DNA of 64,000 bases from positions 1 to 64,000 of the forward strand of contig CALKXE010000118.1 of assembly GCA_938003955.1 (NCBI GenBank), given 5' to 3'. The position numbers were made by a program, and so were the translations under genes. This DNA comes from an uncultured Saprospiraceae bacterium. GTDB taxonomy: Bacteria > Bacteroidota > Bacteroidia > Chitinophagales > Saprospiraceae. Below the pieces are notes generated by a model. The model was not told the DNA's origin. It worked only from the letters and a program-made list of their open reading frames with translations, and did no database searches. Below are positions 28,217 through 60,188 of this stretch, piece after piece. Every line of letters begins with the position of its first letter. Position 1 is the first letter of the stretch.

Positions 28217-28533
28217 TGAATCATGTTATACCAATTGTGTTTCAATTTGCCGCATAAGGATATTGGTAAATGCCGAGATGAGAGGAATGGCTTGCGTAGC
28301 AAACACCCGATATTGAATGTTGCAGACGAATGTATGCGGCAAATTCAATAGTAATCGGTATTAGTGATGTTGCCGTGGGGTTGAAAGATACTTGTAGAAT
28401 ACGTAATATTCACAATTGGAAGCTGTACATTAGTGTGCTTTCATGAAAGTAGAAAACTATTATAATCAGCATAGATGGATATTCCAATGATGAACATTCT
28501 AGTATTTTTAGAACGAAAACCTGAAACTAGTTT
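28217..28533. other. Intergenic region with a family 2 repeat
   Basis: Holds repeat copy 28225-28362; the remainder is AT-rich and shows no gene. Confidence 0.5.
28225..28362. repeat. Palindromic dispersed repeat family 2, long copy
   Basis: It has the same ends as the copy at 58431-58538: GTTATACCAATTGTGTTTCA at the left and AATAGTAATCGGTATT at the right. It carries about 30 extra bases near the middle (near 28280-28310). The left arm TTTGCCGCATA and right arm TATGCGGCAAA are complementary, so the RNA or single strand could form a long imperfect hairpin. Confidence 0.85.
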
Positions 28534-50980: not shown

Positions 50981-53900
50981 ATGAGAAAACTGAATTTCAT
51001 CTTAACAGCGATATTTACCATCGCATCACTTAGTATATTTGCACAGGGAGCTCCTGAGGCAGGAATGCCAAGTGAACCAGGTAAGTGTTACGCAAAATGT
51101 TTAATTCAGGATCAATACGAAACAGTAACTGAGCAAGTGTTGGTTAAAGAAGCAGCTGTAAATGTTAGAGTAGTACCTGGTACTACAGAAACAATAACAG
51201 AGCAAGTTTTAGCCAAAGAGGCATCTACTACCTTATCAGTAGTGCCAGCGCAATTCGAATCTGGATCGGAGCAGGTTTTAGTATCAGAAGGTAAGTCTTC
51301 TGTATCTATCAACCCAGCAACGTTCGAAACAGTATCGGAGCAGGTATTAGAACAAGATGCGTATAGTACGTTATCTGTTGTACCAGCTACATTCGAAACA
51401 GTATCTGAGCAAGTATTGGTGTCTGAAGGAGCATCTAGTGTATCTATTACACCTGCAACATTCGAAACAGCTACTGAGCAAGTATTGACCCAAGACGGAC
51501 AATCTGACCTTAGAATTATCCCCGCTACTTTCGAGACTATGTCTGAGCAAGTACTTGCTGCAGACGGTTCTTCAACTGTAAGAATTAACGCCGCTACTTT
51601 CGAGACTATGTCTGAGCAAGTAATGGTAAACACACATGGAGCTGCTTCTTCTTCAGGAGCAACTACTTATTTAAATGTAAAATTCAATTCTGGTTCTGCA
51701 GTATTGACTGGATCAAGTTCTGAGATCGCACGAGTTGCTTCTTCTCTAGATTGTTCTAGTGGTGCTTCAGCAAGAATAGTAGGACATACAGATAGCCAAG
51801 GTGGAAACGATGCTAACTTAGCTTTATCTAGAAATAGAGCAAAAGCAGTATACGATGCATTAATAGCTGCTGGAGTTTCTTCTTCATGTATTTCTCATGA
51901 TGGAATGGGAGAATCTTCTCCTATTGCTGATAACAATACAGCAAGTGGAAGAAAGCAAAATAGAAGAGTAGAATTAATCGCAAGAGGAGGAGCTACTTCT
52001 ACTACTGTGAATAGTGATCCTAACTCTATCATTGATCTTAGAATCAGACCTGCACAATTCGAAACTGTTTCTGAAACAGTATTGGCTGCTGATGGCGCTT
52101 CTAGCGTTAGAATCATCCCTGCAACTTTCGAGCAAGTATCAGAGCAAGTATTAGTTGCTGATGGATCATCAAATGTATCTATCTCTCCTGCAACTTTCGA
52201 AACTCAATCTGAGCAAGTATTAGTGAAAGATGCTTACACGACTCTTAAAGTAGTACCTGCAACTTTTGAAACTGTATCAGAGCAAGTTCTTGTACAGGAT
52301 GCTTACGAAGTATTATCTCCAGTACCTGCGGTATATGAGACAATCACTGAGCAAGTATTAGTAAAAGATGCTTATACTACACTTCAACCAGTTCCTGCTA
52401 CATATGAGACAGTAACTGAGCAAATTTTAGTAAAAGATGCTTACACTACTTTATCAGTAGTACCTGCAGTATACGAAACAGTATCAGAGCAAGTATTAGT
52501 AAAAGATGCATACACTACTCTTAGAGCAGTACCTGCAGTATACGAAACAGTAACTGAGCAAGTATTACAAAAAGATGGTTATACAACATTATCTAAAGTA
52601 GCTGCTACTTACGAAACAGTAACTGAGCAAAAACTTAAGAAAGATGCATATACTACACTAAGACCAGTTCCTGCTACATACGAAACAGTATCAGAGCAAA
52701 AATTAGTAAAAGATGCATATACTACGCTTTCTATCATTCCTGCAACGTTCGAAACAGTAACTGAGCAAGTAATGACAAAAGCGGGATATAATACTTTATC
52801 TGGAATAGCTGCTCAATATGAGACAGTTTCAGAGCAAGTATTAGTAAAAGATGCTTACACAACAATCAGAGTAGTACCTGCGAGATACGAAACAGTATCA
52901 GAGCAAGTATTAGTAAAAGAAGCTACAACTAGAATCGAAACTAGACCAGCTAAATATGAAACTAGAACTGAATCAAGAGTAGTAGAACCTGCTTCAACTA
53001 AATGGGAAAAGAAGAAAGCTGACAAAAATTGTCTTTCTGCAAATCCTGAAGATTGTTTAGTATGGTGTCTTGTGGAAGTAGCTGAAAAAACTCAAACATT
53101 CACAACTCAAGTAAGAGTAGGATGTGATGACGGATGGACTGATGACGGTGAGTGTACTAAGACGATTGATATTCCTGCGGAATACTCAACTAGAACATTC
53201 CAGAAGTTAGTATCTGATGCAACTACTGAAGTTGTAGAAGTACCAGCTGAATATACAACTAGATCTTTCCAGAAATTGGTTACTCCTGCATCTGCATCAG
53301 AGAATCAAATCGAGGCAAAGTACACAACTAGAACTTCTAAGAAATTAGCTTCAGATGCAACAAGTACTTCAAATGATGTACCTGCTAAATATGAAACTAG
53401 ATCTTACAAGAAGCTTGTAAATCCTGCTTCTTCAGAAGCTGTACAGGTTGATGCTACATATGAAACGATCAGTTACAGAAAGCTTGTAACTCCAGCAACT
53501 ACTCAAGCAACACCAGTAGAGCCAGTATACACAACGAGATCAATCAAGAAATTGGTTACTCCTGCGTCTACAGAAGCTGTACAAGTTCCTGCTGAGTACA
53601 CAACTAGATCTTACAGAAAGCTTTCTAGTCCAGCGACAACACAAGCTAATCAAGTAGATGCTAAGTACACAACAAGATCAATCAAGAAATTGGTTACTCC
53701 TGCAAGTACTACAGTAAGAGAAGTGCCAGCTGAATATACAACGAGATCAATCAAGAAATTGGTTACTCCAGCAACTACTAAATCTACAACAGTACCTGCA
53801 AAGTACGAAAACAGAAACTTCCAAAAGTTAGTATCTGGAGCAACTACTACAGTAGTTGAAGTACCTGCAGCATACACTACAAGAACTAGTAAGAAATTAG

Positions 53901-55183
53901 CTTCTAGTGCTTCTGCTTCAGAATCTACAGGAGATCCTAAGTACACAACTAGAACTATGCAAAAGTTAGCTTCTTCAGCTACATCTGAGAATTCAGTTGG
54001 AGATCAGAAGATGACAACAATCACTATGCAGAAATTAGTTTCTGATGCTTCTACAGATGCAGTATATGGAGGACCTCAATATACTACTAGATCATACAAG
54101 AAATTAGCATCTGATGCTTCTTCTGAAATGATATCAGGAGATCAGAAGTACACAACTTATACTTATCAGAAGTTATCTTCTGATGCTACTTCAGAAGCTT
54201 TAGCTTGTGGTGGAACATCTACTTCATTGGCAGTAAACTTTGCTAGTGGATCAGCTACATTGATCGGTAACTCAAGTTCAGAAATCAGTAGAGTTGCTGG
54301 TATGATGGCTTCAGATGCTACAATGACTGGAAGAATAGTAGGACATACTGATTCTCAAGGTGTAGATTCAGCTAACCAAACGCTTTCTAGAAATAGAGCA
54401 AAAGCAGTATACGATGCATTAATTGCAGCGGGTGTTGATGCTTCTAGATTGAGCTACGAAGGAAGAGGAGAATCTTCTCCAATTGCTACGAATGCAACAG
54501 CTGACGGTAGAAGACAGAACAGAAGAGTAGAACTAGTATCTTCAGGATCAGGTTCAAATGATGACTGTAGACAATACAAAACAAGAACATACCAGAGATT
54601 AGTTGCAGATGCTTCTGCTTCAAACTCAACTGGTGATGCTAAGTATACGAATAGAACTTTCCAGAAGCTTGTTAATCCAGCTACTACTAACTCTAACACT
54701 GTACCAGCAAAATACGGAACAAGAACATTCCAGAATTTAGCAGGAAGTGCAACTTTCAATGAGGCAACTACAGAGAAAGAATACACAAACAGAAGTTTCA
54801 AGAGATTAGCTAACGCTGCAACAACTAACGCTAACACTGTAGAAACTAAGTATGAGACTAGATCAATCAAGAAAACTACTAATCCAACAGTAGAGAAGAT
54901 TGATGTTGCTCCTCAATACAGAACGATCACTAAGAGACAATTAGTGAAAGCGGGTGGATTTACAGAATGGAAAGAAATCATTTGTGCTGCAGATGTTACT
55001 CCAGACTTATACAGAAGAATCCAACAAGCATTAATCAACAAAGGTTACAATGTTGGTTCTGCGGGTGCTGATGGTCAAATCGGAACAGCGACTAAGAACG
55101 CTCTTGTGAAATTCCAGAAGGACAATGGACTTCCAGTAGGTGCACTTGATACAGAGACTCTAAGAGCTCTTGGTGTACAGTAA
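50981..55183 (+). CDS. Giant 23-residue-repeat envelope protein with two OmpA domains and a peptidoglycan-binding domain
   Basis: 1400 residues. Signal peptide ends SIFAQ at residue 22; GKCYAKCLIQDQ opens the mature part. About 43 units of 23 residues follow. Blocks A (about 45-215, 8 units) and B (345-675, 14 units) have the form YETVTEQVLVKDAYTTL-x-x-VPA; blocks C (720-1070, 15 units) and D (1195-1335, 6 units) read YTTRSIKKLVTPAST-x-x-x-x-VPA. Between B and C is a Cys-rich joint (NCLSANPEDCLVWC). OmpA C-like domains lie between A and B (223-336) and between C and D (1073-1188), each with IVGHTDSQG and NRRVEL. A PG_binding_1-like domain ends the protein (IQQALINKGYNVGS, KFQKDNGLPVG). It likely spans the periplasm and holds peptidoglycan; its ligand is unknown. 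Confidence 0.85.
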   Translation: MRKLNFILTAIFTIASLSIFAQGAPEAGMPSEPGKCYAKCLIQDQYETVTEQVLVKEAAVNVRVVPGTTETITEQVLAKEASTTLSVVPAQFESGSEQVLVSEGKSSVSINPATFETVSEQVLEQDAYSTLSVVPATFETVSEQVLVSEGASSVSITPATFETATEQVLTQDGQSDLRIIPATFETMSEQVLAADGSSTVRINAATFETMSEQVMVNTHGAASSSGATTYLNVKFNSGSAVLTGSSSEIARVASSLDCSSGASARIVGHTDSQGGNDANLALSRNRAKAVYDALIAAGVSSSCISHDGMGESSPIADNNTASGRKQNRRVELIARGGATSTTVNSDPNSIIDLRIRPAQFETVSETVLAADGASSVRIIPATFEQVSEQVLVADGSSNVSISPATFETQSEQVLVKDAYTTLKVVPATFETVSEQVLVQDAYEVLSPVPAVYETITEQVLVKDAYTTLQPVPATYETVTEQILVKDAYTTLSVVPAVYETVSEQVLVKDAYTTLRAVPAVYETVTEQVLQKDGYTTLSKVAATYETVTEQKLKKDAYTTLRPVPATYETVSEQKLVKDAYTTLSIIPATFETVTEQVMTKAGYNTLSGIAAQYETVSEQVLVKDAYTTIRVVPARYETVSEQVLVKEATTRIETRPAKYETRTESRVVEPASTKWEKKKADKNCLSANPEDCLVWCLVEVAEKTQTFTTQVRVGCDDGWTDDGECTKTIDIPAEYSTRTFQKLVSDATTEVVEVPAEYTTRSFQKLVTPASASENQIEAKYTTRTSKKLASDATSTSNDVPAKYETRSYKKLVNPASSEAVQVDATYETISYRKLVTPATTQATPVEPVYTTRSIKKLVTPASTEAVQVPAEYTTRSYRKLSSPATTQANQVDAKYTTRSIKKLVTPASTTVREVPAEYTTRSIKKLVTPATTKSTTVPAKYENRNFQKLVSGATTTVVEVPAAYTTRTSKKLASSASASESTGDPKYTTRTMQKLASSATSENSVGDQKMTTITMQKLVSDASTDAVYGGPQYTTRSYKKLASDASSEMISGDQKYTTYTYQKLSSDATSEALACGGTSTSLAVNFASGSATLIGNSSSEISRVAGMMASDATMTGRIVGHTDSQGVDSANQTLSRNRAKAVYDALIAAGVDASRLSYEGRGESSPIATNATADGRRQNRRVELVSSGSGSNDDCRQYKTRTYQRLVADASASNSTGDAKYTNRTFQKLVNPATTNSNTVPAKYGTRTFQNLAGSATFNEATTEKEYTNRSFKRLANAATTNANTVETKYETRSIKKTTNPTVEKIDVAPQYRTITKRQLVKAGGFTEWKEIICAADVTPDLYRRIQQALINKGYNVGSAGADGQIGTATKNALVKFQKDNGLPVGALDTETLRALGVQ

Positions 55184-57552: not shown

Positions 57553-58104
57553 TTATTCAGCTATCATAGGATTCTTATATGAGTCATATTGGTAGAGCTG
57601 GTATTTTTCTATTTTGTCTATTAATTTGAATGCATACTGCGTGTCAGTTGCATATCCACAGTTTTTGAGACCAAATGCCCATCTTTTGTAGTCGTCTTTT
57701 TCGAAATTGAATAGCTCAGAGTAATGAGCGGATTGAGTAAGGAAATTACTATGGTCAACATATGAATCAATTACACTTTCATATGATCTAAAGCATGACT
57801 TGATAAGATTACCTTTAGCATCGAAGTCATCATCTTTGTGGTTGTAGGTATGTCCCTTCCAATAGGATTTACATTTTATTCCAAAGTGATTATTTGCAAA
57901 TACTGCCAGATCACTTCCTCCAACTCCAGATTCGTGAAGCGCCTGTGCTAAAGTAATACTTGCAGGTATGCCACTTCGGTGCATCTCGACTACTGCAAGA
58001 TCCTTGTACTTTTCTACATAAGCATTTGCAGCTATATCTTTAGGGTTTTCCGAAATAAATAAACTTAGGAATGAAAACATTAATAGGGTAATGTACTTTA
58101 ACAT
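57553..58104 (-). CDS. Glucosaminidase domain protein
   Basis: 183 residues with a hydrophobic N-terminal signal (ITLLMFSFLSLFIS). The catalytic domain has SGIPASITLAQALHESGVGGSD with E58 as acid, then NNHFGIKC and SYESVIDSYVDHSNFL, as in FlgJ/LytG-type N-acetylglucosaminidases. It would cut peptidoglycan glycan chains in the periplasm, perhaps during cell growth. It lacks a LysM domain. It stands alone on the minus strand. Confidence 0.92.
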   Translation of the reverse strand: MLKYITLLMFSFLSLFISENPKDIAANAYVEKYKDLAVVEMHRSGIPASITLAQALHESGVGGSDLAVFANNHFGIKCKSYWKGHTYNHKDDDFDAKGNLIKSCFRSYESVIDSYVDHSNFLTQSAHYSELFNFEKDDYKRWAFGLKNCGYATDTQYAFKLIDKIEKYQLYQYDSYKNPMIAE

Positions 58105-58336
58105 AAATACTTGATTTTCGTATTAAACGAGTTTAGAAAATATCGGGATTACTTATGTTGATTCTTATTATATTACAAATTATCAACATGTATACATGGT
58201 AGTAATTTCCAAATGTTATGCCAAGTTTCTAAAAATGTGATTTTTGGATAGAGATTAGGATCGAGTGAAGAATTGATAATTGGTATAAGATTAGGGCATG
58301 GCTAAGGCATTGCTCACAACATAACAATGAAACCAT

Positions 58337-58760
58337 TGCCCGAGCCATACCTTGCTTATCCCCCTTTGGGGGGGGCTAGGGGGTGGAAATCACGCCAAAT
58401 AGCTGAGATCAGACAATGTCGGATTAACTTGTTATACCAATTGTGTTTCAATTTGCCGCATAAAAATATTGGTTAATGCCGATACATATTGAATGTTGCA
58501 GACGAATGTATGCGGCAAACTCAATAGTAATCGGTATTCCATAGATAGGCAATCTGTTTTGAAAAATATATTATGATATTGGACATGGATAGTTCGATTT
58601 CTCTGAAGTCTGTCTTGATTTTCATTATACGATACAAATTTATTTTGATGCAGGTGCTTTATTAAATTTATAATGTTGTGATTTAGACGGTTCTAACAGG
58701 GTTGTGTTCGTCCACCCCCTTCACCCCCTCCGAAGGGGGGTATTAACAGTGGCTCGGGCA
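58337..58760. mobile_element. MITE-like element with about 50-bp terminal inverted repeats
   Basis: The left end (58337-58387: TGCCCGAGCCA ... CCCCCTTTGGGGGG ... AGGGGGTGGA) is inverted at the right (58711-58760: TCCACCCCC ... CCCCCTCCGAAGGGGGG ... TGGCTCGGGCA). The ends are imperfect in the G/C-rich part. It has no transposase; the interior holds a family 2 repeat. It may be a non-autonomous element or a composite of spreading repeats. Confidence 0.6.
58431..58538. repeat. Palindromic dispersed repeat family 2, core copy
   Basis: 108 bp with ends shared with 28225-28362. Arms TTTGCCGCATA (left) and TATGCGGCAAA (right) are complementary, and the outer ends ATACCAAT and ATCGGTAT also pair in part. 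It lies inside the 424-bp inverted-repeat element. Confidence 0.85.
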
Positions 58761-58865
58761 GATTTCAATTAAAAGGACGAAATCCCAGTTAACTTAATTA
58801 CCAATTCCTCACTTTTCCTACTTTTCAATCTTTTCTAGTAAATTGCAGACAGTAAAAAATGTTTC

Positions 58866-60188
58866 GTGTTTATATACATTATCAAACGTCTACTTCTTTT
58901 TATACCTACACTAGTTCTGGTGTCGTGCATAGCGTTTTTTCTAAAAAACAATGTACCCTCTGATCCTGTAGAAACCTTACTAAGTCTGCAAGGAGTGGAT
59001 GATTCAAGTGAAGCATTTATTGTAGCATACGATGAAAAAGTAATAGAGTTGGGGATGAATCTTCCTTTATTCTATTTTTCAATCCAATCTAACTACACAT
59101 CTTGGCTTGATAAAACTAAGTTAGAAAGTTCAGCAAAGCGTTTTGCTAAAGAACTCGCAAATGAAAAGTACAACGTAAGCGATGTATTAGAGTTAATTTC
59201 ACTTATATACCAGCTGGAAGACAAAGAAAGGCGAACCCTATTAGTTTGTCAGGCCCCACGTGAAGTCATTGAAAGATTGGATAGACCGCAACTTGATAGA
59301 GTAGGGCTTGAAATGAAATCAATGATTAGATCACAAGTTGGTAGGATGGAAGGCAATAAGGAGCACTGGCATTATCCAGTTTTATCATGGCATGGATTCG
59401 AGAATCAATACCACAATTGGATTTTAAATTTCATAAAAGGAGATTATGGTGTATCTCTAGTTGACGCACAACCAGTGTTTAGGAAATTGTGGAATAGCAT
59501 GAAATGGACGCTGATGCTACTTGTCATAAGTTTGACAATCTCTGGTCTGATTTCGTTTGTATTAGGAATTTACAATGGTATCAATCAAGGGACAAGATTT
59601 GACCGATGGTCAAATGGAATATTATTTCTGTTTTATAGTATACCAAAATTTTGGTTGGCGACGCTGATGATCATATTTTTCACAACTGCAGAATATGGAA
59701 ATTGGACTAATATATTTTCTACTGTTGGGGATTGGCCAAGAATGACGGGCTTTTTTGAAATGTTTTATGTGTCAGCTCATAAATTGATATTACCGATTAT
59801 TGTGATTGTTATTCCTGATGTAGCGTATTTGTCAAGGTTAATAAGGGCTAGTATTATAAATGAAAATAATAAAGAGTACATAAAAACTGCTAGAAGTAAA
59901 GGAGTTCCAAAACGAGATATACTTCGTAAACACTTAGTGCCTAATTCGTTGATTCCTACTATTACGTTGTTTGCAGGTGTGTTGCCGGGAGCACTTGGCT
60001 CATCATTAATAATAGAGGTGATATTCAATATTCCAGGAGTAGGTAGATTGATGTATGAAAGCATAAAGACGGCAGATTGGGCCATTGTGTTTCCAATAAT
60101 CATGATAGTGTCTATACTTACTGTAGTCATTTTCTTAGTAGCAGATATATTAATAGCATGGTTAAATCCTAAAATAAAACTAGGATGA
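58866..60188 (+). CDS. ABC transporter permease, DppB-like
   Basis: 440 residues from a GTG at 58866 (FIYIIKRLLLFIPTLVL); the frame is closed by a stop at 58839 and no ATG is in frame. It has the DppB/OppB permease pattern of one N-terminal helix, then a large extracytoplasmic region (about residues 30-205, much longer than in E. coli DppB), then five helices. The coupling loop is EYIKTARSKGVPKRDILRKH. Together with the next gene it would form the channel of an oligopeptide- or nickel-type importer. No substrate-binding protein or ATPase gene is nearby. Confidence 0.9.
   Translation: MFIYIIKRLLLFIPTLVLVSCIAFFLKNNVPSDPVETLLSLQGVDDSSEAFIVAYDEKVIELGMNLPLFYFSIQSNYTSWLDKTKLESSAKRFAKELANEKYNVSDVLELISLIYQLEDKERRTLLVCQAPREVIERLDRPQLDRVGLEMKSMIRSQVGRMEGNKEHWHYPVLSWHGFENQYHNWILNFIKGDYGVSLVDAQPVFRKLWNSMKWTLMLLVISLTISGLISFVLGIYNGINQGTRFDRWSNGILFLFYSIPKFWLATLMIIFFTTAEYGNWTNIFSTVGDWPRMTGFFEMFYVSAHKLILPIIVIVIPDVAYLSRLIRASIINENNKEYIKTARSKGVPKRDILRKHLVPNSLIPTITLFAGVLPGALGSSLIIEVIFNIPGVGRLMYESIKTADWAIVFPIIMIVSILTVVIFLVADILIAWLNPKIKLG

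Follow-up and report, generated by a model that had tools for sequence, protein, structure and literature searches.

Two REP-like hairpin repeats and a MITE form a composite in an uncultured Saprospiraceae genome, and hairpin repeats of the same class flank DUF559 genes

Within the window, by which is meant the whole stretch of 64,000 nucleotides analysed from an uncultured Saprospiraceae bacterium, positions 58337-58760 are a composite in which a REP-like hairpin repeat (family 1) is present twice, in opposite orientations, on either side of a separate and unrelated MITE (family 2). Taken alone, the element is an ordinary composite; family 1 is one member of a widespread hairpin-repeat class found on either side of genes encoding the Vsr-like domain DUF559. 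The best explanation of the site, and one that we consider on the whole probable, is that it holds two decayed gene-less family-1 repeats, the spread of which was helped by a DUF559 nuclease, together with a MITE that was inserted later.

The composite occupies the gap 58105-58865 between the divergent genes for a glucosaminidase (reverse strand) and an ABC transporter permease (forward strand). The features of the site, and a second copy of the MITE elsewhere in the window, are as follows.

57553-58104, reverse strand: flanking glucosaminidase gene (PF01832); the same neighbour is present in the congeners G001 and G003
58299-58336: decayed partner half of the left arm and doublet linker, placed by end-motif positions and by-eye comparison with doublets; partner end TGGCTAAGGCA at 58299-58309, 27-bp linker between TGGCTAAGGCA and 58337, left hairpin of the partner lost
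58337-58388, forward strand: family-1 half-unit, left arm, with end TGCCCGAGCCA at 58337-58347
58360-58375: left-arm hairpin CCCCC-TTTGGG-GGGGG, followed by the spacer CTA
58379-58388: second G-run of the left arm plus TGGAA
58432-58434: left target duplication of the MITE, TTA; the right side is TTC at 58537-58539
58435-58536, forward strand: MITE (family 2), 102 bp, terminal inverted repeats TACCAATT..AATCGGTA
58711-58760, reverse strand: second family-1 half-unit, inverted, right arm, TCCACCCCC with hairpin CCCCC-TCCGAA-GGGGG
58750-58760: right-arm end TGGCTCGGGCA
58866-60188, forward strand: flanking ABC transporter permease gene (PF00528), which served to locate empty sites
28229-28360, forward strand: second MITE copy of the window, a 132-bp long-loop variant, with TTA at 28226-28228 and 28361-28363

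The initial annotation described a single 424-bp element with inverted ends, a nested palindrome and no transposase, possibly a MITE or a composite repeat. The inverted ends are indeed present, and the G/C tracts inside them (58711-58738 against 58360-58387) are 75% complementary over 28 nt. The absence of a transposase likewise agrees with the absence of any ORF of at least 80 aa between 58105 and 58865, and an Rfam scan of the window returned no match. The unity of the element did not survive a search of the 304 contigs (5.24 Mb) of the genome, in which 40 of 118 first-look candidates were scored: of the 44 matches reported for the 424 bp, one is full length and is the stretch itself, and the other 43 are confined to parts of query positions 77-211, which are the MITE; therefore the 424 bp is not a repeat unit. 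Nor does the structure begin at 58337, and since the partner end TGGCTAAGGCA and a 27-bp linker are present, the left arm is read as a doublet minus one hairpin; the partner half of the right arm is not recognisable. Elsewhere in the genome the family-1 arms occur as doublets or singlets. Thus, of the two readings offered, composite holds for the whole and MITE holds for the inner 102 bp only; the 424 bp as a MITE is rejected, with no second copy reported among the candidates scored, no target duplication seen at its ends in the window sequence, and arms found separately elsewhere. Just outside the 424 bp, AATTGGTATAA (58278-58288) and TAATTACCAATT (58795-58806) resemble MITE ends, possibly by chance in AT-rich DNA. 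In another part of the window (50981-55183), a 1400-aa ORF contains dozens of imperfect VPATFETVSEQVLV-type repeats and, by eye, apparently two OmpA-like stretches.

The inner palindrome was present as the initial annotation had said, with a length of 102 bp instead of 108 bp, and its second copy, which had been placed at 28225-28362, is the 132-bp variant listed above. A pattern search allowing at most 3 mismatches found 41 matches to the left end and 40 to the right end of the MITE in the genome, and the reversed-pattern control found 0. There are about 40 genomic copies, of which 38 were extracted, with ends TACCAATT..AATCGGTA. The three bases on each side are TNA, identical on the left and the right, in 30 of these 38 copies, so that a target-site duplication, which could not be seen around the 424 bp, is found around the MITE; the TTC to the right of the window copy is taken as a mutated copy of TTA. 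The length is 102 bp in 25 of the 38 copies and 131-132 bp, with a longer loop, in seven, while copies of 162 and 257 bp contain other inserts. The inner 102 bp is thus short, multicopy and non-coding, with terminal inverted repeats and a target-site duplication, as a MITE should be. TNA targets are typical of the IS1031 group of IS5. The window MITE shares the 3-bp TNA target duplication with MITEs of that group but differs from them in that its genome has no match to PF01609, the sole transposase family that was searched for as an IS5-type parent. Among 59 relatives, with at most 11 candidates scored per genome, no congener has a match to the MITE, and G028 and G044 have weak partial matches.

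Some copies of the MITE in this genome (G000) have features of their own. Two of them (L059 on C65, 304 bp; L079 on C147, 361 bp) carry tandem arrays in the loop, with 5.6 and 10.1 copies, respectively, of an 18-bp TTCGAAGAAAACACTCGA unit and 7.1 and 4.3 copies of a 12-bp GTATAAGAGATG-like unit; in both, minisatellites have grown within the MITE loop. A third copy (L061, 162 bp) has the look of such growth at its beginning, but no array was detected in it. Another copy (C20:2662-2777) lies beside a Y1_Tnp gene (L137, G000 C20:3192-3533), which, like a second Y1_Tnp gene (L138, G000 C203:9670-9987), has by eye its own flanking repeats, for example around GACTTCAGAGAAGTC and GAATTGGAAGCGACATTGGC.

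A homologue of the ABC permease is present in all 12 relatives searched, and through it the same site can be examined in the three congeners. In G001 and G003 the glucosaminidase and permease genes again face one another, 390 and 202 bp apart, respectively, with neither repeat between them; in G002 the permease is followed by homologous intergenic sequence with neither repeat up to the end of the contig, which is reached before the left-hand gene. Because the site is empty in all three congeners, the repeats either were inserted in the lineage of the window or have disappeared from every one of the others. The initial annotation had named a static structure, with the same arrangement at the same place in all relatives, as the outcome that would count against a mobile element, and these empty sites are the opposite of that outcome.

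The core of family 1 is TATCCCCC-loop-GGGGG, 3-4 bases and GGGGGTGGA, and in this genome it is preceded by GCC(C/A)GAGCCA. The strict core pattern, searched in 60 genomes including that of the window, matches 10 times in this genome, 9 times in G002, 26 times in G006, 9 times in G023, 5 times in G026, 4 times in G045 and once in G050; it is absent from the other 53 of the 60, and the reversed control gave 0 matches in all 60. Eight other stretches of this genome were fetched, and four of them (C14, C39, C49, C21) contain outward-facing doublets of about 130 bp with the plan TTCCACCCCC-hairpin-TGGCTCnGGCA, linker, TGCCnGAGCCA-hairpin-GGGGGTGGAA, where the linker is 19-27 bp if both end motifs are recognisable. 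The remaining stretches contain two like-oriented copies (C239), singlets (C117, C134) or end motifs only (C116). The predicted fold of the C21 doublet as single-stranded DNA is a single long hairpin (-46.8 kcal/mol, z -9.7), as for an inverted REPIN doublet; the window copies are decayed, and single window arms fold no better than shuffles.

One of the two DUF559 genes of the genome (PF04480, Vsr-like; C21:34417-34734) lies between an intact and a decayed family-1 doublet, so that family 1 flanks a DUF559 gene within the same genome. Exact matches to the family-1 pattern lie within 600 bp on both sides of a DUF559 gene in G023 (C583) and G026 (C218), and inexact family-1 copies lie on both sides of a DUF559 gene of G002 (C114). 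Across the five genomes that have both pattern and gene, the exact pattern is within 600 bp of three of 15 DUF559 matches, and in G006, the genome richest in family 1, none of six DUF559 matches is close to any of the 26 pattern copies. DUF559 is present in five of the seven pattern-positive genomes versus 21 of the 53 others; no DUF559 match was found in G001 or G003, the congeners without the family-1 pattern, nor was a DUF559 gene detected in G045 (four family-1 copies) or in the 57%-complete G050 (one copy). This genome-level co-occurrence is suggestive, but the pattern-positive genomes are few and co-occurrence alone is unconvincing; therefore the direct flanking of the genes is relied on. 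A second DUF559 lineage (L141, G000 C122:14957-15295; L140, G002 C24) is flanked by a different palindromic repeat, which has the end motif GGCTCGGGC in common with family 1.

The flanking of DUF559 genes by hairpins extends well beyond these genomes. From 374 named loci found to encode DUF559 relatives, the best 80 were taken with flanks of up to 3 kb, and 71 were testable after exclusion of L153 (100% identical to L145 over 3312 bp) and of eight loci with a flank shorter than 300 bases; one locus (L242) contains a masked N stretch and was judged on its visible part. The motif sought was a hairpin whose 3' arm recurs within 8 bases, on both sides of the gene and at most 450 bp from it, and control placements were made 1.5-2 kb away in the same loci. 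The motif is present on both sides in 42 of the 71 named loci versus 0 of 272 control placements, and in 0 of 72 cases when the named flanks were shuffled by mononucleotide. When the two flanks of a locus are aligned locally with each other, the score is at least 20 in inverted orientation at 34/71 loci (controls 0/272) and in direct orientation at 29/71 (controls 4/272). Either the motif on both sides or matching left and right repeats were found at 54 of the 71 loci versus 4 of 272 controls, and 17 of the 71 have no matching repeats. Of 34 DUF559 loci fetched from relatives, 27 have flanks long enough to be tested; there is flank evidence at ten of the 27 versus one of 57 control placements, and no matching repeats at 17.

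The units so found have a common make-up. The 16 printed inverted pairs, which were found by alignment alone, consist of G/C hairpins whose G-rich (or GGGAGG-like) arm is repeated close by. Among 108 units from the motif search, in which hairpin and repeated 3' arm are search conditions and only the make-up of the runs and the TG are independent results, 82 have a C-run, a G-run and a second G-run of four or more (for example TCCCCCTTTGAAGGGGGTTAGGGGGATGTT), and TG follows in 63 of the 108, counted among those 82. They come from Bacteroidota, Proteobacteria, KSB1, Ignavibacteria and others, and a few look like chance occurrences in GC-rich DNA. Likeness between repeats tracks likeness between the DUF559 proteins (Mantel rho 0.36, with 0 of 999 permutations as high, 48 loci), a correlation that shared descent could also produce. 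Matching flanks of some kind were found at ten of 19 Y1_Tnp loci, as expected for RAYTs with their own REPs, and the hairpin motif on both sides at none of the 19; thus, repeat flanks are common to DUF559 and RAYT loci, and the hairpin plan is not.

Several DUF559 domains are inserted in frame within other proteins. A single open frame encodes MetH-DUF559-MetH in G023 (L238), in which the MetH chain 3bul aligns to the query up to position 466 and again from 619, at chain residues 402 and 405. For a methionyl-tRNA synthetase (metG, L174, from a Chitinophagaceae MAG), 1rqg aligns up to query position 269 and from 418, at its residues 247 and 243, and for PriA (L193), 4nl4 aligns up to 177 and from 425, at its residues 155 and 234. 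Host domains precede and follow DUF559 in an HsdR protein (L176); YkuD matches twice in a further protein (L206), and the one of these two stretches for which a position was given lies before DUF559. A host domain is on one side of DUF559 in HemE (L254, C-terminal), an amino-acid kinase (L227, N-terminal), a second HsdR (L243) and an N6-methylase (L139). Peptides beside DUF559, such as PPAPPEGGE and SPPSGPVGG, look like translations of G/C hairpins, and in the MetH and MetRS cassettes G/P-rich hairpin-like peptides lie on both sides of the domain. One open frame of an Alphaproteobacteria MAG (L222:2632-4572) reads YkuD-DUF559-AdoHcyase; it may be a product of recombination between cassettes or an assembly chimera, and was left out of the insertions.

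The DUF559 protein of C21 matches the endonuclease-like structure 3hrl (PDB; E 1e-14), the only match of the single-protein search, and a profile of five DUF559 proteins matches both 3hrl and 3r3p, 'Mobile intron protein' (E 5.4e-5 for 3r3p), which we take to be the catalytic domain of I-Bth0305I. An alignment of DUF559 sequences from 79 of 105 loci, excluding L153, L238, L242 and rows with stops or N, has a Vsr-like catalytic motif, E-x-D-G-x-x-H..D, of which the core D, D, H and D are invariant in 79/79 sequences and the E is conserved in 78/79. DUF559 thus has both the sequence relation and the catalytic E, D, H, D by which EDxHD homing endonucleases are recognised. In the available text of PMC12907096, VsrA, a Caulobacter protein with a DUF559 domain, is described as Vsr-like. 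The Pfam matches of the scanned proteins include no intein domain.

The pathway by which these parts could have produced the window element is modelled on the REP system, in which, according to the accessible portions of PMC6006769 and PMC3116915, TnpA_REP (RAYT) is thought to spread its own REPs in a like manner. From this analogy we infer that DUF559 acts on the repeats and drives their spread. The DUF559 protein would cut at or beside the hairpins, repair or replication would copy the hairpins to new places, and sometimes the nuclease gene would be copied along with its flanking hairpins. At the site in the window, family 1 appears to have come first and the MITE later: two family-1 copies, now decayed, would have arrived in opposite orientation in the gap between the divergent genes, and the 102-bp MITE, with its preference for TNA targets, would later have been inserted between them. 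For the class as a whole, it is an evenly balanced proposition that the hairpins (C-run, loop, G-run, short spacer, second G-run, often TG) are the DNA partner of DUF559 nucleases, that gene plus hairpins form a mobile cassette capable of inserting in frame inside essential genes without splicing, and that gene-less doublets, those of the window among them, are its non-autonomous progeny, the whole being a system like REPs and REPtrons but with a Vsr-like nuclease in the place of the HUH transposase.

The main rival to a spread helped by DUF559, possible though considerably less probable, is that the hairpins are older and the DUF559 genes are newcomers, the nuclease homing into the hairpins as its target without moving them. 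The position of the C21 gene between two like-oriented doublets is consistent with homing, as are the frequency of direct-repeat flanks (29/71) and the match of the DUF559 profile to a protein named for mobile introns. Because hairpin-like peptides are found on both sides of DUF559 in MetH and MetRS, however, repeats and gene seem to travel together; yet a gene-less hairpin could have come first even there. It is improbable that the arms and interior of the window element were inserted together, as a hairpin-DUF559-hairpin cassette that had lost its gene. The arms do face inward, as do the inner halves around DUF559 in C21 and around several named genes, and their end motifs are identical, but the C21 doublets are like-oriented whereas the remnants in the window are inverted, tblastn for a DUF559 remnant between the window arms gave only chance-level matches, and no second copy was reported among the 40 of 118 candidates scored.

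More doubtful still is a reading in which a RAYT (Y1/HUH transposase) moves family 1, an ordinary REP in that case, and DUF559 is a bystander. The genome (G000) has three Y1_Tnp genes, the family-1 doublets look like REPINs, and some kind of matching repeat flanks ten of 19 Y1_Tnp loci; against this, a search of 22 Y1_Tnp (RAYT-type) loci, of which some overlap, in seven genomes including this one detected family 1 at none of them, the hairpin motif flanks none of 19 such loci on both sides, and GTAG or its complement CTAC is present anywhere in only 11 of the 108 DUF559-flanking units. A RAYT as the partner of family 1 is therefore unsupported. That the arrangement is static, for example a transcription terminator between the genes, is scarcely credible: G/C hairpins can terminate transcription where they lie close to the end of a gene, but the flanking genes are divergent, so that no terminator is needed there, and the repeats are absent from all three congeners.

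If spread by DUF559 is the correct explanation, REP-like repeats, which are commonly found without a recognised partner, are given one, a domain of unknown function gains a role, and the spread of these repeats can be tested with one purified protein and one hairpin. The hairpin repeats that flank many DUF559 genes suggest that such repeats can spread by a route not recognised so far, and the in-frame insertions in metH, metG and priA raise the question of how an inserted nuclease domain of about 150 residues is tolerated. No paper linking DUF559 to palindromic repeats was found in the literature searched, which excluded preprints and most subscription journals; going by that literature, this link is the new part of the present analysis.

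The systems most similar to this one are the REPINs and REPtrons, as presented in the accessible portions of PMC3116915 and PMC6006769. In both, the G/C hairpins are short and form inverted doublets, decayed single copies occur, and a resident gene lies between repeats that have similar copies scattered through the genome. The difference is that the resident gene here encodes a DUF559 (Vsr-like) nuclease and theirs an HUH transposase (TnpA_REP, RAYT); in addition, the GTAG tag is rare here (11/108 units), no GTAG-type tag is found at the hairpin foot in the window arms as read, and the hairpin is followed by a second copy of its 3' arm. Another similarity is to the REP-like families of palindromic repeats that have a CGTC tag or are 'untagged', for which no dedicated transposase was found by the authors of PMC3733652 (available text); that 2013 survey, which also names the Rickettsia palindromic elements (RPE), did not settle whether any specific protein binds untagged palindromes. 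The repeats described here differ from those families in that CGTC or its complement is present in 2 of the 108 DUF559-flanking units and in that a nuclease partner is proposed. EDxHD homing endonucleases (I-Bth0305I; available text of PMC3943268) resemble DUF559 in the match of the profile to 3r3p and in the conserved catalytic residues, and differ in that DUF559 is a single small domain, with no intein domain in the Pfam matches, encoded by a gene bounded by hairpin repeats. The location of the cassettes has a parallel of its own. RPEs are palindromic elements inserted inside coding genes, as DUF559 cassettes are too, but to our knowledge RPEs encode no nuclease, whereas the cassettes described here encode one.
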